Origin: a virus | Strand: one strand, 5' to 3' | IMG/VR virus record: IMGVR_UViG_3300020472_000152 | Location: 1 to 25,393 of that record | DNA length: 25,393 bases | In this document: one piece after another, positions 9,033-22,630 of the stretch | Layout of the letters: every line of letters begins with the position of its first letter | Numbering within the stretch: position 1 is the stretch's first letter | Notes under the pieces: model-generated | What the model was told of the DNA's origin: nothing | Database searches by the model: none | Seen by the model: only the letters and a program-made list of their open reading frames with translations | Position numbers and translations under genes: made by a program

Positions 9033-10823
9033 TTAGAATTCAATTACGAGCTTGATGTCCTCAATTTGGTCAGCAGCTCTTGTAATTTGTCTTCTGTTCT
9101 CTATGTATACGATATCCCCAGAGTTAGATGCGATCTCAGGTGTTGCAAGACCTTCAACGAATGAAACATCTTGAACAACTGAAGGAGTTCCAGTAGTTCC
9201 AGCAGCAGTATCAACTGCTGAAGATGCAGTTGAAGTAGAACCAACTACAGCATTTGCAGCGTTGGATTCAAATGCACGAACAATACCTGAATCAGTGTGT
9301 ACATTAGGTGACTGATAGTACTTTAGAATACCATTAGTTGCATCCCAAGAAACAACTGTACCTTTAGCTATACCACCTGTAACAGTCTGAGTAATAACTT
9401 CATCAGCAACATAATCTGTGGTTGCACCATTAACTTTTAATACGGCAGTTCCACGTAATGTGCTGTTAGTAGAAACTGTTGTTGTTCCGAAATCAAAGGG
9501 ATCTTGAATAATACCAATTCTGCGGAAATCATTATCCACAGGGAAATCACCTTGCCCTTCAGCATAAGTTAGACGAACGTTCGTCATAACTCTCTTAGCA
9601 AAGAGTTCTACATCAGCATCTGAACCATGTCCACCTTCAGGTGAAATGATAACTTCAATTGAACCTGTAGAAGTGAAAGCACCAGCAGCGGCTGTAAGAG
9701 CAGCATCAGTGAATACCTTTCCTGTCTCTAATATTACGCTACCATATGTGTAACCTGAACCAACTGCTTCCATTGATACGTCTGTAATACCACCAGAACC
9801 ATCTGTATCAATCTTAACGATAGCACCAGTAGCAGTTCCAGCATTTGCACCATCTCCAAATACAGGAGCATATAGTGTGGTAGTAGCAGTTAATCCAGCA
9901 CCAACACCTTTAATGACAGCAATATGAATTGCTCCGTCAACGGCTAAACCTTCAACAGTAGTTCTTGATGCTTCACCAGTAGCAGCGATTGGCATAAAGT
10001 CTGTGGATAAGAAAGCAATAACATCTCCAGTTGTCAGTGTATACATATGCTTCCAAACATATCCACCTGTACCAGATGGTTCCGTAAATACTCCATTAGC
10101 AAAAGTACCTTGACCTGCTGTTGGAGTAGACTTTGGTTCATATGTTGCATTTTGTCCAGCACTATTTGCTGTATTCTGTCCATTATACAAACACTTAAAC
10201 ACTTCATACTGACTGTTCATTACATAAAACTTAGATCCAGTAAGAGCATTTGCTCCTAGAGCAGTTTGAGTACCAACAGATCCACCGCCACCAGGTGTCG
10301 CTGAATAGTTTGGACGGTACATATCAAACTTAGCATTAATCTGAGTATTCCAATTGTAACGAGGAACAACAAGACGTGCGTTGTCAGATAAAACTCTCTT
10401 TGCAGCAATTAATTCGTCATATACATCTTGCTTCTCAATTTGATTATCCAATGGCAGTGGAGGAATCTCTTCAGTAGCGTATCTGTAAGTACCTGTTTTA
10501 GCAACTGCGGTAGCAACATTACCAGCTGGTGCGGTGATATTAATATCACTACCAAATGCGGGAGTTGAGGTTGCAGTTGGAAGAATAGTATTGAGTAGTA
10601 AACTATTAGGATGAACCTCTGCTACTACTGCACTCCATGCTCCTACTGCAACAGTATCACCTACTGCAAAAGTTCCGCTAGCCCCGAATATCTCAAGGTA
10701 TGCTTCCCACTTTGCGGATCTTCCCACAAAGAAGTACATGTTAGTTGGTGCTGCTTCACCAAGGGACTCTAAGAATTGCTTCGCATTGAAGATTCTAAAT
10801 TTTTCTGAAATGATAGCTGCCAT
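9033..10823 (-). CDS. 8: Baseplate wedge protein gp8-like
   Basis: The 596-residue product matches recalled T4 gp8 landmarks in order. These are an N-terminal block (SEKFRIFNAKQFLES, then MYFFVGRSAKW at 29-39), a VPRYNW block near 152-157, a KCLYNG followed by GGYVWKHMY near 253-262, FRRIGIIQDPFDFG near 432-445, and a C-terminus reading VYIENRRQITRAADQIEDIK. T4 gp8 ends with a very similar MENRPPI...DQTEEINI stretch. T4 gp8 is 334 residues, so this protein is nearly twice as long; the extra sequence lies at about 40-110 and 270-425 and is Ala/Thr/Gly-rich, as expected for added surface beta domains. In T4, gp8 dimers sit on the outer face of the wedge and contact gp7 and gp10. The gene follows the gp7-like gene, as in T4, and two late-promoter octamers lie 43 and 53 bases upstream of its start, so it may also be transcribed separately. 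Confidence 0.85.
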   Translation of the reverse strand: MAAIISEKFRIFNAKQFLESLGEAAPTNMYFFVGRSAKWEAYLEIFGASGTFAVGDTVAVGAWSAVVAEVHPNSLLLNTILPTATSTPAFGSDINITAPAGNVATAVAKTGTYRYATEEIPPLPLDNQIEKQDVYDELIAAKRVLSDNARLVVPRYNWNTQINAKFDMYRPNYSATPGGGGSVGTQTALGANALTGSKFYVMNSQYEVFKCLYNGQNTANSAGQNATYEPKSTPTAGQGTFANGVFTEPSGTGGYVWKHMYTLTTGDVIAFLSTDFMPIAATGEASRTTVEGLAVDGAIHIAVIKGVGAGLTATTTLYAPVFGDGANAGTATGAIVKIDTDGSGGITDVSMEAVGSGYTYGSVILETGKVFTDAALTAAAGAFTSTGSIEVIISPEGGHGSDADVELFAKRVMTNVRLTYAEGQGDFPVDNDFRRIGIIQDPFDFGTTTVSTNSTLRGTAVLKVNGATTDYVADEVITQTVTGGIAKGTVVSWDATNGILKYYQSPNVHTDSGIVRAFESNAANAVVGSTSTASSAVDTAAGTTGTPSVVQDVSFVEGLATPEIASNSGDIVYIENRRQITRAADQIEDIKLVIEF

Positions 10824-10865: not shown

Positions 10866-10873
10866 TATTTATA
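10866..10873 (-). promoter_or_regulatory. T4-type late promoter box (TATAAATA)
   Basis: The minus strand reads exactly TATAAATA, the T4 late-promoter -10 element recognised by the gp55 sigma-like factor family. It lies in the 55-base gap between the gp7-like and gp8-like genes, about 43 bases upstream of the gp8 ATG, a normal distance for a late leader. An exact 8-base match in one of the few non-coding gaps is unlikely to be chance, although AT-richness raises the background. Confidence 0.7.
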
Positions 10874-10875
10874 CT

Positions 10876-10883
10876 TATTTATG
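10876..10883 (-). promoter_or_regulatory. Second late-promoter-like box (CATAAATA)
   Basis: The minus strand reads CATAAATA two bases before the TATAAATA box, so the pair forms CATAAATAAGTATAAATA with a 10-base period. It overlaps the gp7-like stop codon. One mismatch to the T4 consensus; it may be a tandem start or simply a duplicated neighbour of the better box. Confidence 0.4.
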
Positions 10884-13800
10884 ATGTAGTTCTTAAGAAG
10901 TCACCTACAGTGTGCTCTTCAACGGATGTACTGTTGACTCCACGAGTGCAATCTACAAAACGATCACTCAGTTTACTAGTATAAGTAATTTGTTCCCTTC
11001 CTATTGAAATGGTTCCTGATGCAGGGAAATTAGTAGTATCTGCATATACTATAGCACCAGTAGCAAGATACCCTGCTCCATTTTCATCTGGCAAATCTGA
11101 AGTATTCAGTTGTGCCATATAATTATTAATTGTTGGATAACCTATATTGAAAGAATATCCATCATCCGCATATCCTGATTGTGCATTGGACTCAAATTGA
11201 CCAATATTAAAACCATATCTGTCAAACTCTTCAATAGTGTATTCGGATACTGATGCACCCCCAGAAGAAAGAATGTCTCCAGTAGACATAAACTTTGCAC
11301 CTTCCCACTGGAAGAATGCAGGTCGCATAGTCATATTATGGAGTTGAGGAGGATTCTGATTATACGTTGGATTATAAAAACGATGATCAACAAATCCTAA
11401 TTGGTATATAGTAGTTCTTCCACCATCTCCATCACCAGGTCCACCTGGACCTCCTGGACCTCCTGGATCTGGATCACCTGGATTAACACGTCTTCTATTA
11501 CTAATTGGATCAATATAGAAAGTAGGAACCCTCATCTTAACTGAAATCTTAGGTTCAATTATTTCTATTCCCATATAATAAGTAGTTCCAGTAGAACTTA
11601 CAGAAGTTACAACTGTAGGGTATATTTTCAGAATTTCTTGCGGAACTGCTACGGGTGCTGGTACAGTTACATTAAAGTTAATGATGGATGTTATCTGTAT
11701 CATCCTACCAGACCAACTAACATCAGCCCAAGGATACTCCTTATGTGTTCCATTACCATCACCATCGCCAGGTAATATAGGAAGTCCTGGATCACCTGTT
11801 CCTGGTCCAGACTCAACACCTTTCTCCTTACTGATAATACAAATAACACTAAGAGCTGAGTTATCTAATTCACCCTCAATCCTAAGATCAAACAGAGTAT
11901 CAACTTTCCTTCCACGTTGTTTAATTAAATCATATTGTCTAGCAGTAACAACTTGAGGTGGTTTCTCGTATCCAGATCCAGGATCCGTTAAAACAATATC
12001 AACAATATAACCATCAGAAACTATTACTTCTGCTTTAGCACCACCACCTTTCTGATCTATTGGAACAAAATGTATTATTGGTGTAGTATCATAACCACCA
12101 GCAGTAGATGGACGTAAAATACCTTCATCATATAATAATTGAAGATCTGCTTTATTCCAATCAAGAGAAGTTATTTTACCACCAGATACAGTAGCACTAA
12201 CACTTAAACCTACTCCTCTAATATTACCAGAGTAATTTGTTACACCTAATGATCCAAAGAAACTATTAGATACTTCTTCTCCAGCGTTATAAGTCTTTGG
12301 ATGTGCAAATCTAGGTAACTTATTAACTTCACGATAACTATCTTCACCATCTATCTTAATATGATCTCCAACTGATAGTTTTTCAATACCTCTTCTTCTT
12401 TCTGATAAAGCTTTATCACCTTTCTCACTTCCATATAACCACTTAGTAACATTTCTCTTCATTTGATAGTTACTATAATCATCCTTAGTGATTTCAATAG
12501 TAACTGTGCCACCTGGAACAGCAAGTTCAAATTCATCACTGAAATCTGACTTACCTGCAAAGAATATAGAAGAATTATCAAGATCAGGGTTATTACCAGA
12601 AAGAATAACATTCAATTGATTTGTATCTAAGTTATATCCTTTAAGATTACCAATAAATCTCTTAACACCACCTATCTTCTGATATGCTACTTGGAATAAC
12701 TGAGAAGTATCATCATACCACTTCCTCCATGCAGTAAATCCTGGATTTGTCCCACCATCATTGTACGACAATGTAATTTCATTGAAATACTCATTTCTCT
12801 CATGATCAAATATGGTAAGATTTGAATCCTTCTCTCTTCCATATAGAGATATAATATCTACCTTACTTCTTCTAAAGATATTCCTAGTAAATCTAATAGC
12901 AGGTCCAGTAATATTATATGACCTACCTTCTCTCTGTAAGACACCATCAATAAAGACTAAAGCGAATGTTGGATCAGGAATTGAAGAGACATTATCATCA
13001 TTGTCCACTATCAAAAATGGACCAGGTGAACCATCTTTTCCAATTGCATTATTGTTTGTGGTAAATCTTTCATAACAACCCATACCATGAGCAAAAAACT
13101 TATCAACTGCTAAAGGTTCTTGTAACGTTTTAGTATTTTCATTCTGACCCCATATAGGTGGACTATCAAAGACTACTCTATTTGGAGTAACATCTCTATC
13201 AATAGTATAAGATCCTGAGTGTTGTAATACACCACTTAATGCTATGAATAGATCCTCATTTGGATCAGTAGATACAGGATTGCCATCTTCCCAATAAAGA
13301 TCAAATATTGTATTATCTCCATTAATAAAATCAGCATAACCAACATCAACAGTTCCAGGTCCACTAGTCAATGTCATTCTAAGAACTTCATATAATGTGT
13401 CTAATGCAGAAAGAACATCTTCACATTTAACAGGAACAGTATCTAAAAGAATATCAGGGTTATCATATCCATTAGGTAACTCATTATTAACTGCCAACTT
13501 AGCAAGATCTTTTACTTTCTCAAATGCTTCTAAAGTTGGTTCCAATTCACCAATAATATAATCAAGAATTCCATTGTTGTAATACTTCTCAGCAGAGAAT
13601 ATAGTCTTCTGATTTCCACCAAATCTTAAGTCATGTGCAAATGCATCAACTATCAATCCAATATCCCTAACACATGTACTAGAAAGAGTTGTCCATGCCA
13701 ATGTAGGATGAACACCCTTGATATAATCTATAGTTTGTGATTGAATATATTGCTTATTTCTTTCAAGTTGATTAGCAGCATCAATCCATCTTCCATTCTT

Positions 13801-16800
13801 TTGATATATGTTTCTAATTTTCTTAAGATACCTAGCATTCAAACTATCAGTCTTAAACTCAAAATTTCTTCCATAGAAACTAACACCTTCAACATCTGTT
13901 TTACTTGGATTTGTTATTGATAATCCACTCTTGGTTCTTGGTCCTAAAGGAGGTTGAGCAAAAGTAATCTTATCTCCATTAACTGTGAAAGATAATCCTG
14001 GTTCTTGTAATATACCATCAATGGTAATTATCAATGCTTGTGCATTATATGGTTTTACTACATTACCATCCTTATCAACCATAGTGAATACAGTTCTTCC
14101 TTCTAAGTTTCCTTTATTGGTAAATGCTCCATTAAATCCAGGAGTTAAGAAAACATTACCACCAGATATTTCACTAGCAACTAAAGCATCAAGAGAAATT
14201 GACCCAGAACCCTTTTCTACATTAAGATTGTCCATCAAGACAATACTCTGAGTAATCTGTCTCTTAGTACTTTCTACAGTAACAATTTTAGGAGCAACTT
14301 CTATAACACTAACTCTACTATAACTAGTGTGTTCAGACATACGTGACACACCACTAGATTCAATTATAACTTCTCCAAATAATTGAAATCCAGCTGGGTG
14401 GGTAGTTGATTTGATTAAATCTCTCCATATGTTAATTGGAGTCTTTGATTTGATCGCATAAGAATAATCTTGATAATAGAAAGAATCTGTTATCCTTTGA
14501 TTGAGATCACTTATCTTTCCTTCATCAGACTTATAGAAACCTAAGTTATCAAAATATGTTTTAATTAATGGTTTAAATGATTCAAAAGAAATACTTTCAA
14601 GTAATGCTGACTTACTCTTAGATAATCCATATATTAATTGATTTTCTCTAAAGATTCCTTTTACTCTATCAATAAGAAGAATATTAGATCTCCATGAAGT
14701 AACTCTTGCTCTAGCAACTTCAACACCACCTGTCTTTTGTATTACCTCTTCTCCAATACTAAATGCATCTGCATCAAAAGTAGATAATTTAAATACGTAA
14801 TTTGATCTGAAAGTAGAACTCAATGTTTCATCACTATGGAAAGCACCACCGTTGTTTAATATCTTTACACTACGAGGAACTCCAATATTATCACTCTCCA
14901 AGAAACATAGTACATTTGTATCAATAGTTCCATTATTATTATAAACTCCTGTCACTACTGGGATTTTAAGATAGTCAGTACCAATATTAGTAATATCAAT
15001 TGAATTGATTTCACCTACAGAAAACTGAGATCTTGAAGTATATGTAATAGTTCCACTACCATCATGGGGAGATGTAATCTCAGTAGAATATAAAATCTTG
15101 TTAGATGTAACATATACTACATCTTTAGATCCTTGTAAAGGATCATCAATAACATTTAAATAAGCGTTCTCTGAATTAGATATTCCATTTTCATCATAAT
15201 AATAGTATCTGTTATAAACAATATCTTCTTTTGTAGTGGAAGATCCAACTCTCACACCAAAACCTATCTTAACATCAATATTGTTATTATTCTTTATTCT
15301 TTCTGGTGTAACTAAGTTAAAATTAATACTTGGTGATATATCAAATATCTTACCATTCATTGATAAATGAGAAGTATCAAAAATATACCTATAATATTTC
15401 TTTATATCAATATTTTTATTTCTTTCTCCATCAATTTCAAAATAATACTGTGGAGATGTTACATTAGCAATATCAACTATTCTATTATCAGGAGTACTTT
15501 CATCTTTAAATACACTACTTAATGTTAATTCACTAATAGTTGTTAATGTTTGTCCATATGAATATCTTAACAATACCTTCTGTGTAGTCTTATCATAAGA
15601 AACAACTATTGGTTGTGTAGGATCAGCAGTTGTCTGATTAATCTGATAACCAACAGACAGATTGTATCCAGCATCTGATAAAATAACATTAATACCATCA
15701 GCATGATCTGCTGGAGAATTCCCTCTATTTACTTCAAGTGTATTACCACTAATAGATTTAATACTTACAATTTCACTTCCAATAAGAAGATTATCTCCTA
15801 GTTTGAATCCAATAACACTATCAAGTTTTAAATCCTTTTCTCCAGATGAAAATCCTGCATGATCAACACGTAGTTTGAAATTTGGATCATCTGTTGACGA
15901 TTTTCCTAGATCAGTATTACCAACAGTTAAAATATCATATGTTGTGTATCCTGTACCCTTATCTGTTAGAGCAAAATCTGTTACAACAGTATAATTACCA
16001 ACTTGTGTTACTGTTATATTTGCTTTAGCATCTGTTCCTGTTCCACCCTTCAATGCGATATCAGTATACGTACCTACAGTATACCCATCACCACCATTAA
16101 GAATTTCATATCTTCCAATTCCACTATCGCTGAGAACCCTTGCAACAGAAGGGATCTCAACGGTTACTTCTTGATATATTGCACTAGTTACTTGGTGTGT
16201 AGTCGTAGTTGTAGCATCATCTGGAATAATATCAATATTAATTTTTTCTCCTATACCAACTCCATGAGATCCATCAACTGAAAGTATTGCTACATTATCT
16301 TGTATAGTAAATATATTTAAATTTTCACTTAAATTAGTAATACCAACAACTCTAGACCCTGTAGTATCAATTAAACTACTACTTGAGAGAAATAGTGAAT
16401 CATCAGCAACAAAACCATTTAAACTAACTTTAACCTTTACTGTATTTTGACCTATTGAGGTTTCAAGTACTTCACCTCTACCAACAGGGTTATTAACACC
16501 ATCAGATAAAGAAAGAGTAGCACCTTTACTATATGAAGAGTCTTGATTTAATATTAAAGAGATTACCTTTGTGTTTGATGATAGTACATCTGTACTATTA
16601 AAGGTTCCTGATACAGAACTTAAAGCAAACTTACTACTAGAGAAGACATCTCCTACTATAGTTCCTGTAGCACCTGTATTTGCTTGTGTGATAGTATCTC
16701 CATCAAAGAGATACCCAATACCAATAAGTTCAACATATAATGCTTTCTTTACTTGAGACTCAATTGAGACTACTGATTTTCCCTTTACAGAACTTACCTC

Positions 16801-19527
16801 TCCAGCAACACCAAATCCATTGGTATCACTATCATCAACTACTATCTTATTTCCTATAGAGAAATTAGATCCACTACTAATAATTGTAGCAGATGATACA
16901 TTACCTCTTTGGACATCATTAATTCTTGCTACTGTAAGGTCACCATTATTATCAATATCAGATGTTCTTAATATTCTAGCATTCCTTGGTAAATCATCCT
17001 GAGTTAACTCAGAATTATAATTAGAATCTACTGGAAGTGAATAATAATTCTCACCTAAGATATATGGGAATACAGGTGTATCTGTACTATCAACAGTAAT
17101 AAAGTAAGCGTATATTCCTTTCGGAAATTCTGGAGTAACACAAAAACGTCCATTGTTCTCATCTAATGTACCAGAACCATGAACATATTCATAATCATTG
17201 ATAAAAGTACCATTAGTAGCAGTAGGTCTATCTGTAGTAGGTGGATTTAATGTATAACTAGATGTCATCCTCTGAACTCCAGATGAAGAGTCTAGTGTGT
17301 TTACATAACCATAAGCACCATATATGGGGTTACCATCATACGCAAACCCCAATATAGGTGAATGATTTGTTCCTGTGTCATTTACCCTTAATGTAGTTGG
17401 GGATGCATAATAGGCATACCCACTTCCCTTAGAAGAAATGAAATTCTTAATGAACCCACCATTATCAGTATCTAATGTTGTATTCTTAAACTTATCCTTT
17501 CTCCACTCTTTAATTTTTGCAGTTGCAGTTGTACCAGAACCTACTGGGATAATATCAATTACTACATTACCCTGTGTATAATTACTTCCACCATTAACTT
17601 TCACTAATCCTGTTAATTCACCTTTAATAGATATTTCTGCTGTATAGTCTGCAAATCTTCCTTTTCCTGCATTATCTGTTATTCTAACTTCTGGTGGAGA
17701 AGAATAGTATTCACCTGCATTATTAACATCTATACTAGTAATAGCACCATTAGTTACTACAGCAGTAGCAGTAGCATTTCTACCAGATAAAATCTCTATA
17801 GTAGGAATTGCTGAATAAGAACCTAATGTATCAATAATAATAGATTCAACTACCTGTCCTGCTAACTTAGTCCTTGCAATACCAGATACTCCATTGACAA
17901 GAACATATGGTTCTTTCTCATAACCACGTCCTCTAGCAGTAACTGTGATATTTTCTAATGGACCATTATATACAACTTCCTCATCCTTATAACTTACGAA
18001 AGGAATACCATTAACAGCAATACCAACATCCCTATACTTAGTTTCGTAAACTTCAGTAGTAGGAATAGGATTCTTTCTAATAATCTTTAAATTCTTTTGA
18101 TCTTGTGCATCAGCAGGTAATGTACCAATAAGATGTGATGGAAATCCAGAAGAAGCAATATAATATCCTGTCTCATCTTCATATATTGCTGATATATTAG
18201 AATTGAGATCTGATATAGCAGCAGTGCCAGTACTAGTAATCCATCTAAGATTATTTTGTGCATCAAAGATCTTTATATCATTAGTCAGGAACCCAGCTTC
18301 TGATATTTCTATAGTATCATTAGCATTTAGATATGGTTGATTTGAATCTGTCTTTAAGTTATAAAGAACTCCATATACTAAAAGAGTTACATTACCATCT
18401 GTAACATCAGCACCATATGTTACAGAAGCATCTGTAGAATGAGTTCCTGTACCTGTCCTTGAGGAAATAATAAATTGATTTACATTTTTATCCTTATATG
18501 TAAATGTCTCTCCATTAATAATAAATTTACCTTCTTTATCCCATCCCATTGTAGAGAAGACATTTACTCTATCACCAACAGTAATACTAACTCCAATATC
18601 TTTTGTTAATTTTGTTCTTGATGCAATAGAGAATTCCCCATTAACAGTAGACTCTGCAAGAATTATCTCATATAACTCTTCACCATCATACTTACCAACA
18701 TATCTTACGTTATCAACAATTGCAGAAGCATATATACCATCTTTTTGTTCTATCTTCTTACCAATAAGATCTTCTGCTATTCCTGATGTTATATTTGCCT
18801 TAAGTGCATATACATTAACCCATCTAGATTCTGAACTCTTAAGAGTAAAATCTCTTGGATGAAATATCTCTGGATCTGGACCTTGTAAATCAACTAAACA
18901 CTTAAATAGGAACTTGATAGAACTATCTGTTCCTTTTGATTTATAGAAAGAACCAATATTTTTTATTAGTGTTCTCTTATCAATATTTCCCTTTAAATAT
19001 ACTTCAGGAAAATCAACAAGATACTGACTCTCAAAACTTTTTACAATTGAATACAAGAAAAGATTACTTATATTCAATACCTCAGATCCTACTAAATGAT
19101 CTGATGATTGTGTCGTTATGAAGGTAGTTGATTCGTAAAGATCTCCAAGTTTAGTATTACCACTTACACCACGACTAACTTCTAAAAACTGAGTATCTGT
19201 TCTGGACTTATAAAAACATATTTCATCACCTATTTTAATATATCCACCATTCTTAGGAAATGAAGATGCATCATCAACATTAATAGTAGTATCTCCACTC
19301 TGTATGAAAATACTAGTATTAGTTGATTGGTTTAATATATTTTTCTCGTAAAAATCAATATCACGATATGTCTGGATATTTTGAATAATATCCAGAGGTT
19401 GTCCTTGAATCTCTAGTTGTTCGTAATACTTTTGTATGAACTTACCAAACAGTTCATATTCTTCATTAATGAAGTTAGGTAACTGAGATTCAATTAAGAA
19501 CGATATCTTGTTAGCAGTCTTTTGCAT
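10879..19527 (-). CDS. 7: Baseplate wedge protein gp7-like, giant form (2882 aa)
   Basis: Two blocks match the C-terminal part of T4 gp7 as I recall it. Residues 194-211 read FYKSKGTDSSIKFLFKCL (T4: FYSTKGIEASYKFLFKVL), followed near 250 by DLIGKKI. Residues 1684-1720 contain YYQDYSYAIKSK, INIWRDLIKS and HPAGFQLFGEV (T4: SYYVMKIKS, VHPVGFGFIAI). In T4 these blocks are on the order of 100-150 residues apart; here about 1,460 residues intervene. The insert holds GxGYxxPP beta repeats (about 525-680) and a YHYH-type domain (722-829). After the core come three DGxLQ repeats (near 1837, 2099, 2194), a helical CVRDIGLIVDAFAHDLRFGG module (1952-2015) and Pro/Gly-rich linkers (about 2570-2600, 2679-2701). 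The T4 beta-propeller N-terminus is absent. It lies 3 bases after gp6, the T4 order. gp7 with two gp6 copies forms the wedge core in T4; the same role is inferred here. Confidence 0.8.
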   Translation of the reverse strand: MQKTANKISFLIESQLPNFINEEYELFGKFIQKYYEQLEIQGQPLDIIQNIQTYRDIDFYEKNILNQSTNTSIFIQSGDTTINVDDASSFPKNGGYIKIGDEICFYKSRTDTQFLEVSRGVSGNTKLGDLYESTTFITTQSSDHLVGSEVLNISNLFLYSIVKSFESQYLVDFPEVYLKGNIDKRTLIKNIGSFYKSKGTDSSIKFLFKCLVDLQGPDPEIFHPRDFTLKSSESRWVNVYALKANITSGIAEDLIGKKIEQKDGIYASAIVDNVRYVGKYDGEELYEIILAESTVNGEFSIASRTKLTKDIGVSITVGDRVNVFSTMGWDKEGKFIINGETFTYKDKNVNQFIISSRTGTGTHSTDASVTYGADVTDGNVTLLVYGVLYNLKTDSNQPYLNANDTIEISEAGFLTNDIKIFDAQNNLRWITSTGTAAISDLNSNISAIYEDETGYYIASSGFPSHLIGTLPADAQDQKNLKIIRKNPIPTTEVYETKYRDVGIAVNGIPFVSYKDEEVVYNGPLENITVTARGRGYEKEPYVLVNGVSGIARTKLAGQVVESIIIDTLGSYSAIPTIEILSGRNATATAVVTNGAITSIDVNNAGEYYSSPPEVRITDNAGKGRFADYTAEISIKGELTGLVKVNGGSNYTQGNVVIDIIPVGSGTTATAKIKEWRKDKFKNTTLDTDNGGFIKNFISSKGSGYAYYASPTTLRVNDTGTNHSPILGFAYDGNPIYGAYGYVNTLDSSSGVQRMTSSYTLNPPTTDRPTATNGTFINDYEYVHGSGTLDENNGRFCVTPEFPKGIYAYFITVDSTDTPVFPYILGENYYSLPVDSNYNSELTQDDLPRNARILRTSDIDNNGDLTVARINDVQRGNVSSATIISSGSNFSIGNKIVVDDSDTNGFGVAGEVSSVKGKSVVSIESQVKKALYVELIGIGYLFDGDTITQANTGATGTIVGDVFSSSKFALSSVSGTFNSTDVLSSNTKVISLILNQDSSYSKGATLSLSDGVNNPVGRGEVLETSIGQNTVKVKVSLNGFVADDSLFLSSSSLIDTTGSRVVGITNLSENLNIFTIQDNVAILSVDGSHGVGIGEKINIDIIPDDATTTTTHQVTSAIYQEVTVEIPSVARVLSDSGIGRYEILNGGDGYTVGTYTDIALKGGTGTDAKANITVTQVGNYTVVTDFALTDKGTGYTTYDILTVGNTDLGKSSTDDPNFKLRVDHAGFSSGEKDLKLDSVIGFKLGDNLLIGSEIVSIKSISGNTLEVNRGNSPADHADGINVILSDAGYNLSVGYQINQTTADPTQPIVVSYDKTTQKVLLRYSYGQTLTTISELTLSSVFKDESTPDNRIVDIANVTSPQYYFEIDGERNKNIDIKKYYRYIFDTSHLSMNGKIFDISPSINFNLVTPERIKNNNNIDVKIGFGVRVGSSTTKEDIVYNRYYYYDENGISNSENAYLNVIDDPLQGSKDVVYVTSNKILYSTEITSPHDGSGTITYTSRSQFSVGEINSIDITNIGTDYLKIPVVTGVYNNNGTIDTNVLCFLESDNIGVPRSVKILNNGGAFHSDETLSSTFRSNYVFKLSTFDADAFSIGEEVIQKTGGVEVARARVTSWRSNILLIDRVKGIFRENQLIYGLSKSKSALLESISFESFKPLIKTYFDNLGFYKSDEGKISDLNQRITDSFYYQDYSYAIKSKTPINIWRDLIKSTTHPAGFQLFGEVIIESSGVSRMSEHTSYSRVSVIEVAPKIVTVESTKRQITQSIVLMDNLNVEKGSGSISLDALVASEISGGNVFLTPGFNGAFTNKGNLEGRTVFTMVDKDGNVVKPYNAQALIITIDGILQEPGLSFTVNGDKITFAQPPLGPRTKSGLSITNPSKTDVEGVSFYGRNFEFKTDSLNARYLKKIRNIYQKNGRWIDAANQLERNKQYIQSQTIDYIKGVHPTLAWTTLSSTCVRDIGLIVDAFAHDLRFGGNQKTIFSAEKYYNNGILDYIIGELEPTLEAFEKVKDLAKLAVNNELPNGYDNPDILLDTVPVKCEDVLSALDTLYEVLRMTLTSGPGTVDVGYADFINGDNTIFDLYWEDGNPVSTDPNEDLFIALSGVLQHSGSYTIDRDVTPNRVVFDSPPIWGQNENTKTLQEPLAVDKFFAHGMGCYERFTTNNNAIGKDGSPGPFLIVDNDDNVSSIPDPTFALVFIDGVLQREGRSYNITGPAIRFTRNIFRRSKVDIISLYGREKDSNLTIFDHERNEYFNEITLSYNDGGTNPGFTAWRKWYDDTSQLFQVAYQKIGGVKRFIGNLKGYNLDTNQLNVILSGNNPDLDNSSIFFAGKSDFSDEFELAVPGGTVTIEITKDDYSNYQMKRNVTKWLYGSEKGDKALSERRRGIEKLSVGDHIKIDGEDSYREVNKLPRFAHPKTYNAGEEVSNSFFGSLGVTNYSGNIRGVGLSVSATVSGGKITSLDWNKADLQLLYDEGILRPSTAGGYDTTPIIHFVPIDQKGGGAKAEVIVSDGYIVDIVLTDPGSGYEKPPQVVTARQYDLIKQRGRKVDTLFDLRIEGELDNSALSVICIISKEKGVESGPGTGDPGLPILPGDGDGNGTHKEYPWADVSWSGRMIQITSIINFNVTVPAPVAVPQEILKIYPTVVTSVSSTGTTYYMGIEIIEPKISVKMRVPTFYIDPISNRRRVNPGDPDPGGPGGPGGPGDGDGGRTTIYQLGFVDHRFYNPTYNQNPPQLHNMTMRPAFFQWEGAKFMSTGDILSSGGASVSEYTIEEFDRYGFNIGQFESNAQSGYADDGYSFNIGYPTINNYMAQLNTSDLPDENGAGYLATGAIVYADTTNFPASGTISIGREQITYTSKLSDRFVDCTRGVNSTSVEEHTVGDFLRTTS
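11435..11481 (-). repeat. Short tandem Pro/Gly-coding repeat in the gp7-like gene
   Basis: On the plus strand the 9-base unit CCTGGACCT recurs with variants (ACCTGGACC, TCCTGGACC, TCCTGGATC). It encodes a collagen-like DPGGPGGPGGPGDGDGG linker at about residues 2685-2701. A second Gly/Pro-rich linker is encoded near 11740-11820. They probably act as flexible hinges between C-terminal domains, and such tandem repeats are prone to length change. Confidence 0.7.
17041..17364 (-). other. YHYH-type domain within the gp7-like protein
   Basis: Residues 722-829 show the ordered motifs of the YHYH family: HSPILGFAYDGNPIYG, YGYVN, SSYTLNPP, a NDYEYVHGSGTLDENNGRF block, VTPEFPKGIYAYFITVD and FPYILGENYY. 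The family is known from secreted or surface proteins of bacteria and eukaryotes and, from memory, also from marine phage structural proteins; its biochemical role is not settled. It falls inside the long insertion that separates the two gp7 core blocks. Confidence 0.7.
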
Positions 19528-19530
19528 CTA

Positions 19531-21336
19531 CTACTCTTCTTTATAAGCGATAAATTTACTATTTGACACATCTACATCTAAATATGCCTCACGCTTAACT
19601 TCAATATCTCTATTAGCAGGCTTCGCTCGTAATTCAACACGATTATCAGAAAAACTACCTTTTAAGATTGTAAAGTTATATAATTTAATTTCACCATGAT
19701 GATAATCAACAGTTCCTACAGAATCATCTAATAGGATCTTTTCACCAGTCAAAGAATCTAGTCTATATAGGACTATTTTACCATCTCTATCCTCTAGATA
19801 TGAGGTATAGTTTGGATACTCAAAGACTGTCATCCCTGTAGACGAAACTACAGGATTATTGCAATCTATTAAGAAAGGATTCTGATAACATATCTCATAG
19901 AATGAAGACGCATTTATCTGTGCGATAAAATCCTTTCGTAATATAATATTTGTATCATTTGATTTAATAGAACGATCAGCATTATCAATAACACCAATAA
20001 ATTTACTATATCTAAACTTACCATTAAACTTCTCTGTACCAGAAGTCTTTAAGTATTCAGTAATACCATTAATAACCTTTGTTGCCATCTCATTTGGTAA
20101 CAATTTAGTTATTGCACTACTATAGTAGATAGTACTATCAAGTTCAATGTATATAATGGATGGATCTAAAAACTCAGGTCTAATAGAAGCAACAGTATAC
20201 TTTTTAAGATCTTGTACTAGTTGATCTTTTGTATAAGAAGATAATGTAGATGCTTCTGTAGGTTTCACGGATATGAATACCTTACCATAAGCAGGTGGTT
20301 CCTGATCCTCACCACCAAATACAATAACATCACTAACAGCAGGATATAAGTCTCTTACAACAGATTTAAAATCATTAGACGTTACTGCTCTATTCTGTGA
20401 TCCGTAAGACTTGGGAGCATTATACTTAATCTTATCAATACTCTCAATAGGAGCACCACCAGTAGCAATATTTTTAGTAGTAAGAGTAGATACAGCAAAC
20501 GGTAATGTAGTAGCAGCACCTGTGTCATCTTCAACTAATCCATTAAAGGTAAATAATGATGCACCATTAGTAGATTCTCCATTAGTAATGATATAACTGA
20601 TTTCAACTATACTTCCGTTATCAAGACTCTTACCTAATACACCATCACCAAAGAATAACTCATAACTCTCGTCTTCCATCTCACTAATAAAGAAGACTCT
20701 ATCATCTGCCCCAATATCTAATATATTCTTTGCTTCAGTGAAAGTTTTATATATTGTGGAGTTTGCGGAATCATATACTTTTACGGTAACTGTATTTGTA
20801 TCTACGGAAGAATTATCTATTTTAAATCTTTGGTTCCGCAAGTTGGTATTGACAGTAGTTTTAGTTGTAATGAAAGATCCTTCATATACCTCTAGATCAT
20901 TATATGTTGCCACCTTATTAACAACTGATACTTTATGATCTTCTCTTACAACAAAACGATATAACGTATTATCATAGTTCGTTATAAATCCACTTCCTGC
21001 TTTTAATATTGCTGTAGAAGGAGCAGTACCATTAAATGTCAATGCAAGATCAACTACTGCCTTTGGTGACGTAATAGACTTTGGAGTATAACCCAATTGC
21101 TTCGCCAGAGACACCACATTGTCCCTGAGAGTGGAGGAATCAAGGAATAACTCATTGAATACCATATTGGTATTAAACGCCGTATAATACGTGTTATACG
21201 CCATTACGTCTAATAACTGACTGATTGCAGATCCTTCAAAATCGTAATCAGTGAAATCTGACTGTGCTCTCATGTATTCCTTGAGAGCTGTTTTAACTTC
21301 GTTGAAGTCTAAATTGTTTAACTGGGTATATGGCAT
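19531..21336 (-). CDS. 6: Baseplate wedge protein gp6
   Basis: The product is 601 residues (T4 gp6 is 660). The N-terminal region contains FTDYDFEGSAISQLLDVMAY, followed by NELFLDSSTLRDNVVSLAKQ and LGYTPKSITSPKA, which match T4 gp6 (FLDYDFEGSRLNVL, NLRSSVV, NGYLPTSKSAA) residue for residue in places. A baseplate-J-like core is seen at about 316-360 (SQNRAVTSNDFKSVVRDLY, FGGEDQEPPAYGKVFISVKP). The C-terminal part carries FRYSKFIGVIDNADRSIKSN. In T4, gp6 dimers form the inner ring of the baseplate, with gp7 in the wedge core and gp25 packed against them. The start ATG overlaps the gp25 stop (TAATG) and the gp7-like gene begins 3 bases after its TAG, so the three are translated as a coupled set with likely matched stoichiometry. 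Confidence 0.95.
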   Translation of the reverse strand: MPYTQLNNLDFNEVKTALKEYMRAQSDFTDYDFEGSAISQLLDVMAYNTYYTAFNTNMVFNELFLDSSTLRDNVVSLAKQLGYTPKSITSPKAVVDLALTFNGTAPSTAILKAGSGFITNYDNTLYRFVVREDHKVSVVNKVATYNDLEVYEGSFITTKTTVNTNLRNQRFKIDNSSVDTNTVTVKVYDSANSTIYKTFTEAKNILDIGADDRVFFISEMEDESYELFFGDGVLGKSLDNGSIVEISYIITNGESTNGASLFTFNGLVEDDTGAATTLPFAVSTLTTKNIATGGAPIESIDKIKYNAPKSYGSQNRAVTSNDFKSVVRDLYPAVSDVIVFGGEDQEPPAYGKVFISVKPTEASTLSSYTKDQLVQDLKKYTVASIRPEFLDPSIIYIELDSTIYYSSAITKLLPNEMATKVINGITEYLKTSGTEKFNGKFRYSKFIGVIDNADRSIKSNDTNIILRKDFIAQINASSFYEICYQNPFLIDCNNPVVSSTGMTVFEYPNYTSYLEDRDGKIVLYRLDSLTGEKILLDDSVGTVDYHHGEIKLYNFTILKGSFSDNRVELRAKPANRDIEVKREAYLDVDVSNSKFIAYKEE

Positions 21337-21728: not shown

Positions 21729-21755
21729 TTACTGACAATATACGAAGTCAGTTAT

Positions 21756-21763
21756 TATTTAGC
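21756..21763 (-). promoter_or_regulatory. Possible late-promoter box before gp25 (GCTAAATA)
   Basis: Minus strand GCTAAATA agrees with TATAAATA at six of eight positions and lies 28-35 bases upstream of the gp25 start, in the only sizeable gap between the SET gene and gp25. Weak by itself in AT-rich DNA. Confidence 0.3.
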
Positions 21764-21768
21764 GACTT

Positions 21769-22068
21769 TTATGTAACTTGGTAAAAGGTATACTTTAAAA
21801 ATAACTCTTCTCCCTTCTTAATATCCTTAATAGTCCTCATATGGTATATCTTACCCCATTCTTCATCTTCATATACTTTGATGCAATTGGGGTCTTCAGA
21901 ATGGTTTACGAACCCTCCTAGAGGGGTTCTCATGATCTCTTCATCTACTACTACATGGGATATTCCAAGATATACATCATTAGGTATATCCTGGGTAGCA
22001 AAAAGACCTTGCCCTGCGGTAGGACTATCTTTAACATGCAGACAATTGGGAAGTGCTTGATAAGTCAT
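21769..22068 (-). CDS. Compact SET-domain protein (putative protein lysine methyltransferase)
   Basis: The 99-residue product contains the SET-domain hallmarks in order: an N-terminal AGQGLFATQDIPN (S-adenosylmethionine-side GxGxFA motif, residues about 18-30), GGFVNHSEDPNC at about 51-62 (the NHSxxPN pseudoknot motif), and KKGEELFLKYTFY at about 84-96 (GEEL and the catalytic-side Tyr). SET proteins transfer methyl groups from S-adenosylmethionine to lysine side chains. At 99 residues it is near the minimum for the fold, with no pre-SET or post-SET cysteines, similar in concept to small viral SET enzymes. It lies between a 44-residue basic protein (24 bases upstream) and gp25 (40 bases downstream), so it is expressed with virion genes. 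Its substrate is unknown. No strong Shine-Dalgarno sequence precedes the ATG, but the SET motif begins soon after it, so the start is probably right. Confidence 0.85.
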   Translation of the reverse strand: MTYQALPNCLHVKDSPTAGQGLFATQDIPNDVYLGISHVVVDEEIMRTPLGGFVNHSEDPNCIKVYEDEEWGKIYHMRTIKDIKKGEELFLKYTFYQVT

Positions 22069-22092
22069 TCGGAGTCTTCGGCGTTCGGAGAA

Positions 22093-22227
22093 CTAGCGTC
22101 CCTGTCCTCTAGATCTCTTCTTCTTAGCATTCCTAGAAGTCGCAGAAAGCTTCGTATTCTGTGAACTGCCCTGTCTTGTCTTCTTTGGTTTTGGTTGGAC
22201 TACCTGTCCGTCACTGTATAATGCCAT
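22093..22227 (-). CDS. Small Lys/Arg-rich protein (44 aa)
   Basis: Read directly on the minus strand: ATG at 22227, TAG at 22093, 44 residues. It contains 7 Lys and 5 Arg against a single Asp. Basic clusters are at 13-18 (KPKKTR) and 35-44 (KKKRSRGQGR), separated by a Ser/Thr/Gln/Asn-rich stretch. From memory, cyanophages carry short proteins of this type with a KPKKTRQG-like head and an RNKAKK...RGQG-like tail, which supports it as real. It begins 1 base after the stop of the 133-residue gene and ends 24 bases before the SET gene. Its function is unknown. The composition suggests binding to nucleic acid or an acidic surface, and it is an obvious candidate substrate for the neighbouring SET protein, but that is inference. 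Confidence 0.8.
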   Translation of the reverse strand: MALYSDGQVVQPKPKKTRQGSSQNTKLSATSRNAKKKRSRGQGR

Positions 22228-22228
22228 T

Positions 22229-22630
22229 TTAAGTTTTCGTACCAATGTATATTGTAGGATAATTTGTCGCAGATGTCAAGGGTCTAGGATTGGGAGATGC
22301 CCCAATACCCGAAAGAGCATCCCCGATGACGGGAACTAATTTCCCTTCTATGTAAACACCCCTTTCATCTGAATTGACCAATGAAACAAGATCATTCCTT
22401 ACCAAGGGTTGTGGAACAGGTGGAATAGTTGGATTGATAGGTGTCCCAGTAACAGGTGTATACGTGGAAAGAGGATCTAGGAATGTGAGACCTCCTCCAT
22501 CACTGTATACAGTAACACAAGTATAATCAGTACCTCCATTTGCTTGGGAGATATACGTAGCAGTGGGATTAGCACTACCAGTATCCACTGTACTTGAATT
22601 TGCTGGATTACCTGTCAGATTAACTGCCAC
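22229..22630 (-). CDS. Small virion-region protein, weakly PAAR-like (133 aa)
   Basis: The GTG start at 22630 is chosen because a strong Shine-Dalgarno (AGAGGTGG) precedes it by about 3-5 bases; it overlaps the preceding coiled-coil ORF by 11 bases. The product has an Asn/Ser/Thr-rich N-terminus, a Pro-rich linker (residues about 62-74, PINPTIPPVPQP) and a C-terminal part with VYIEGKLVPVIGDALSG and YPTIYIGTK. The last elements loosely recall PAAR-type spike-tip proteins (V-x-NGKPxxRxGD pattern), and T4 places its PAAR protein gp5.4 just before gene 6. The His residues typical of PAAR are missing, so this is only a guess. A role in the baseplate or central spike is inferred from context. Confidence 0.6.
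   Translation of the reverse strand: MAVNLTGNPANSSTVDTGSANPTATYISQANGGTDYTCVTVYSDGGGLTFLDPLSTYTPVTGTPINPTIPPVPQPLVRNDLVSLVNSDERGVYIEGKLVPVIGDALSGIGASPNPRPLTSATNYPTIYIGTKT

Follow-up and report, generated by a model that had tools for sequence, protein, structure and literature searches.

The locus raises the question of why a marine phage should carry a gene for a minimal SET-domain protein beside one for a short, histone-tail-like basic peptide, and whether the two act as methyltransferase and substrate. It lies in an IMG/VR record, a 25,393-base virus contig (the whole stretch analysed, hereafter the window), in which genes encoding gp25 and gp6 baseplate wedge proteins flank the SET/peptide pair, indicating that the window is a fragment of a T4-like cyanophage (Kyanoviridae). 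Two genes, encoding proteins of 2740 and 2882 aa, dominate this fragment. The features concerned are given below.

21769..22068, minus strand: 99-aa minimal SET-domain protein, predicted protein-lysine N-methyltransferase, phrog_28741 (family alignment, AlphaFold, PDB profile and fold matches)
22093..22227, minus strand: 44-aa basic peptide, core cyanophage gene, phrog_516 (PHROG match, phage-record hits)
21755..21762, minus strand: CTAAATAA, late-promoter-like motif between the SET and gp25 genes (motif as in PMC2984593)
21336..21728, minus strand: gp25-like baseplate wedge protein, core gene, downstream border of the cargo slot (Pfam GPW_gp25, 9.2e-16; phrog_261, 6e-53)
19531..21336, minus strand: gp6-like baseplate wedge protein (phrog_219, 3.5e-197)
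22229..22630, minus strand: 133-aa protein with a GTG start, phrog_11361, directly upstream of the basic peptide (PHROG match)

The SET gene runs from an ATG at 22068 to a stop codon at 21769-21771. The original prediction of a SET protein retaining the GxGLFA, NHSEDPN and GEEL...Y motifs was borne out, as these are present as GQGLFA (GQG at residues 19-21), NHSEDPN (55-61) and GEELFLKY (GEEL at 86-89), the last ending in a catalytic-type Tyr93. Pfam PF00856 matched the protein at 2.3e-12 with 47.7 bits, above the curated cut-off of 22.4, and phrog_28741 at 1.3e-55 over 99 of 100 profile positions. A SET fold was predicted with high confidence by AlphaFold using 29 relatives (pLDDT 92.2, pTM 0.81), and a Foldseek search with this model gave 287 PDB fold matches at E <= 0.001, those listed being SET proteins, such as the Plasmodium falciparum SET protein 4rz0 (TM 0.75) and the chlorovirus enzyme vSET (3kma, TM 0.71). 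The SET family profile also recovered vSET (4.9e-10, residues 9-91). In an alignment of 29 diverse sequences of both phage and cellular origin, the six motif positions G19, G21, N55, H56, E88 and Y93 are invariant, which supports an intact active site. The median dN/dS at the same loci is 0.105 for SET versus 0.27 for the peptide and 0.29 for gp25, pointing to strong purifying selection on SET. From sequence and model together, we infer that the protein is most likely a catalytically active S-adenosylmethionine (SAM)-dependent protein-lysine methyltransferase.

The neighbouring ORF (ATG at 22227, stop at 22093-22095) encodes 44 residues including seven Lys, five Arg and a single acidic residue, Asp6, confirming the claimed 12 Lys/Arg and one acidic residue, and it ends 24 bases before the SET start on the minus strand, as had been described. 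It matches phrog_516 (5.9e-20), the peptide occurs in 449 phage records, and its tail, TRQGxSxxTKxSATSRNxxKKxYRGQGR, is strongly conserved. Both the peptide and SET are thus real genes rather than chance ORFs, and the distribution of the peptide marks it as a core gene of Kyanoviridae. Folded alone, the peptide gave a poor model (pLDDT 63, pTM 0.24), making an unstructured tail plausible. In genome annotations the phrog_516 peptide is often missing or overlapped by a different gene call, for example a 'redox protein' in P-RSM3 and a 'hemagglutinin' in P-SSM4, and no matching CDS is listed for it in P-RSM6 and S-SM2.

A dedicated enzyme-substrate pair would be expected to travel together, as the original prediction of a writer and its substrate implied; the two genes were found to occur independently. 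SET is present in six phage records (four distinct phages), against the 449 with the peptide, so that hundreds of cyanophages carry the peptide without SET, among them S-SM2, syn9 and two IMG/VR contigs of 149 and 187 kb. Conversely, SET occurs without the peptide in the pelagiphage Kolga and in chromosomal relatives, and apart from it in P-SSM7, whose SET gene occupies the nrdB-talC interval at 164 kb, 113 kb away from the peptide at 51 kb, as well as in 27 of 133 metagenomic contigs. The P-SSM7 gene, PSSM7_204, is the nearest copy from an isolate, with 80% identity to the window protein. Scanning IMG/VR for the peptide yielded 80 loci, with gp25 62-1645 nt downstream in 76 and SET in seven, and only one of 80 SET-related loci from genome assemblies (L088) contained the peptide. 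This locus (PBHZ01000012.1), assigned to a Euryarchaeota metagenome-assembled genome, encodes a SET protein 89% identical to that of the window besides the cyanophage peptide on a phage-like contig, which was probably misbinned into the archaeal genome.

At least 319 close relatives of SET were found in one scan of IMG/VR. Among 133 distinct SET contigs, a metagenomic sample skewed towards close relatives of the window and including many relatives on contigs without known hosts, 104 (78%) show the order peptide-SET-gp25, two are cut at SET, and 27 place the gene elsewhere in at least five other slots. These are nrdB-talC (10 contigs), a position beside minor coat protein/DNA methyltransferase genes (nine), one beside an endonuclease V/2OG-oxygenase-like gene, a 2OG oxygenase and a radical-SAM gene (five), one downstream of a large primase gene in one phage type (two) and one other (one). 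In 92 of the 104 main-slot loci, a distance of 30-73 nt separates SET from the gp25 gene downstream, but SET is within 50 nt of the peptide in just 51 of the 104, and its tighter link is therefore to gp25. On the SET tree, the distribution across these phages requires at least nine changes of slot, and at least two entries into nrdB-talC fall on supported branches; the short length of the protein leaves most forks unresolved.

Comparison with the backbone shows that SET moves between phages alone, as a clean single-gene cassette. SET and gp25 identities are barely correlated (Spearman 0.11), and pairs exist in which SET is 98% and gp25 29% identical. The coefficient for SET and the peptide is slightly higher at 0.22 (partial 0.21), which is still weak. 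Homology ends at the SET boundaries; among between-backbone pairs with SET at least 93% identical, of which there are only 10, the median peptide identity is 0.63 against a background of 0.62. In one comparison, L029:4097-4377 versus L039:2370-2650, SET shares 95.7% DNA identity over 281 bp in a block that begins and ends inside the gene, gp25 is 29% identical, and no DNA similarity was detected in the adjacent genes for the peptide and gp25, a case of precise single-gene exchange between distant phages. Comparisons across other backbones and across slots likewise confined the strong block to SET. The gap that receives it is a cargo hotspot: 65 ORF families, with purM, purC and several 2OG-Fe(II) oxygenases among them, occur across 220 distinct peptide-gp25 intervals. 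Various oxygenases of this type turn up repeatedly near SET or in the peptide-gp25 slot (L016, L057, L330, L012 and others), and one family lacking a Pfam match, with members of up to 302 aa (representative L274_1_15), occupies 118 of the 220 intervals, mostly those lacking SET.

The original prediction had also placed the two genes inside a baseplate operon. The gp25 and gp6 genes do adjoin them, although a promoter-like motif puts SET and the peptide probably in the preceding transcription unit. The motif CTAAATAA between SET and gp25 is the sole copy in the window and resembles the cyanophage late promoter NATAAATA (PMC2984593). A single match is within chance for a window of this size (2.4 expected), and the argument is its conserved position: NTAAATA occurs between SET and gp25 in 77 of 94 related loci, whereas only three of 92 loci have it within 60 nt upstream of SET. 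It is therefore probable that gp25 has its own promoter, and that SET, with the peptide, closes the preceding unit, outside that of gp25-gp6. A further motif, TATAAATA, occurs once in the window at 10866-10873, between the genes at 10879-19527 and 9033-10823, and also fits a late promoter.

Combined with its patchy distribution, its several slots and a phylogeny at odds with that of the backbone, it appears rather more probable than any other reading, though well short of certain, that SET is a functional minimal lysine methyltransferase carried as mobile auxiliary cargo, with a widely conserved and probably host-encoded protein as its target. SET would then be a SAM-dependent enzyme and a horizontally mobile cargo of marine cyanophages, some pelagiphages and other phages, inserted as a single-gene cassette most often into the variable slot between the core peptide gene and gp25. 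The peptide would probably adjoin it because the slot lies there, rather than as its dedicated substrate. The target may be a slowly evolving protein that many marine bacteria share, such as a host translation, nucleoid or metabolic protein. A host-side rather than phage-specific target is suggested only by breadth of occurrence: with relatives on the chromosomes of Flavobacteriaceae and Porticoccaceae and in pelagiphages, a target shared by many organisms is easier to reconcile with the data than a part of the cyanophage baseplate. Lodging as bare cargo in a hotspot only partly accounts for the 78% slot preference or the close position upstream of gp25, and the retention of one peptide lysine wherever SET is present (see below), together with the slightly stronger correlation of SET with the peptide than with gp25, also runs against it. 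Knowledge of the substrate would point to a protein of abundant marine bacteria whose methylation benefits phages.

The tight spacing to gp25 could instead reflect methylation of a baseplate or other structural protein by SET, a role in the virion that we regard as unlikely. SET enters backbones in which gp25 is only 23-34% identical without itself diverging, it resides in replication/metabolism regions in P-SSM7 and other phages, and it occurs in Kolga and in chromosomes; moreover, the late-promoter-like motif separates it from the very gene to which it is most tightly linked.

The peptide as dedicated substrate was rejected as the default reading on the independence, slot and transfer data, and with this tempting but weak deduction removed, Lys26 is left as the single lysine bearing on the pair. 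If SET modifies the peptide, the target lysine would be expected to be kept where SET is present. Lys26 is indeed Lys in all 110 SET-positive loci versus 67 of 131 classified SET-negative loci, whereas Lys15 and Lys37 are invariant with and without SET. These raw counts are striking, but they are undercut by relatedness: the losses of Lys26 fall in a few clades, most of them in one large clade, and phylogenetically independent pairs gave one to three concordant and no discordant cases, which is not significant (p 0.25-1). A Markov simulation returned P of about 0.003, a value that depends on how loci were sampled and was not trusted because separate sampling had supplied the SET-positive and the Lys26-less loci, with one scan chosen for Lys26-less peptides; the peptide scans as a whole are biased by query choice. 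The Lys26 pattern is the one lead in favour of a pair.

Methylation of the basic peptide by SET, most plausibly at Lys26 (TK-x-[SA]A[TS]SRN), so as to alter its binding to DNA, RNA or virion proteins in late infection, is accordingly a quite improbable alternative in our estimation. Besides Lys26 and the weak correlation between the two proteins, it can draw on their adjacency on the same strand, probably in one transcription unit, on the contrast between an acidic SET (pI 5.0) and a very basic peptide (pI 11.9), and on the preference of SET for the peptide-gp25 slot. It has to contend with a core peptide that mostly does without SET, with SET genes that lack the peptide or lie far from it, with SET transfers unaccompanied by a similar peptide, and with chromosomal SET relatives without any such peptide. 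Less probable still is the specific proposal of a histone-code-like pair in a bacterial virus, in which SET would methylate Lys26 of the core peptide; were it true, a constitutive cyanophage peptide would become regulated only in those phages that gained the writer. It is very improbable that SET is a degenerating or catalytically inactive remnant with only a binding role: at 99 aa it is shorter than most SET domains, it has no post-SET motif and an acidic loop around residues 67-73 differs in length among relatives, but every motif residue including Tyr93 is invariant, its dN/dS is low, and a short SET domain can be active, as its structural match vSET shows.

In comparison with known systems, the window SET showed no difference from phrog_28741, to which the SET assignment, the slots and the mobility are added here. 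The window peptide matches phrog_516, a family of basic cyanophage peptides of 44-48 aa, and differs in that Ser39 occupies a site where Tyr is nearly invariant. Small chromosomal SET relatives of 100-125 aa, about 37-45% identical, occur in marine Flavobacteriaceae, Porticoccaceae and SAR86. They share the motifs Y-x-[AP]LP...G-x-G-[LIV]-F, R-x-PLGGF-[IV]-NH and GEE with the window protein and differ in their chromosomal setting and, in some cases, a C-terminal extension. Among the best 80 genome loci, the best clearly chromosomal relatives belong to Flavobacteriaceae and Porticoccaceae, and no Prochlorococcus copy was found. Their genomic context was rejected as a clue to the substrate, as the neighbours are unrelated genes (fabA/fabB in Porticoccaceae, a transporter, a lipase). 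A SET gene by pst has been described in HIMB59 bacteria (PMC10734472); it was rejected as being of the same type, since its product is longer, at about 170 aa, with a Cys-rich end. Two loci from marine Alphaproteobacteria, L159 and L166, carry such a longer SET gene (about 170 aa, Cys-rich C-terminus) beside the pst phosphate operon. The SET slot falls inside or at the edge of the cyanomyovirus hot-spot region between gp46 and gp25 (PMC3037559; Sullivan et al.), and lysine methyltransferase cargo goes unmentioned in the passages of that account consulted here.

No publication on a lysine methyltransferase encoded by a phage, or on a SET enzyme in cyanophages or Caudovirales, came up in a search of the open literature, which leaves most subscription journals outside. 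Phage SET proteins are already present in sequence libraries, and vSET is a described viral SET enzyme; the window protein belongs to a compact SET family with well-documented mobility among ocean phages. With a profile match spanning nearly the whole domain, vSET of PBCV-1 (A612L; PDB 1n3j, 3kma) is the closest full-domain solved relative of the window protein. Both are viral single-domain SET proteins, of 119 and 99 aa, respectively, with 27% identity in the aligned part. The PBCV-1 enzyme is an H3K27 methyltransferase from a virus that infects algae, and it methylates host histone H3, whereas the hosts of the window phage are bacteria without histones.
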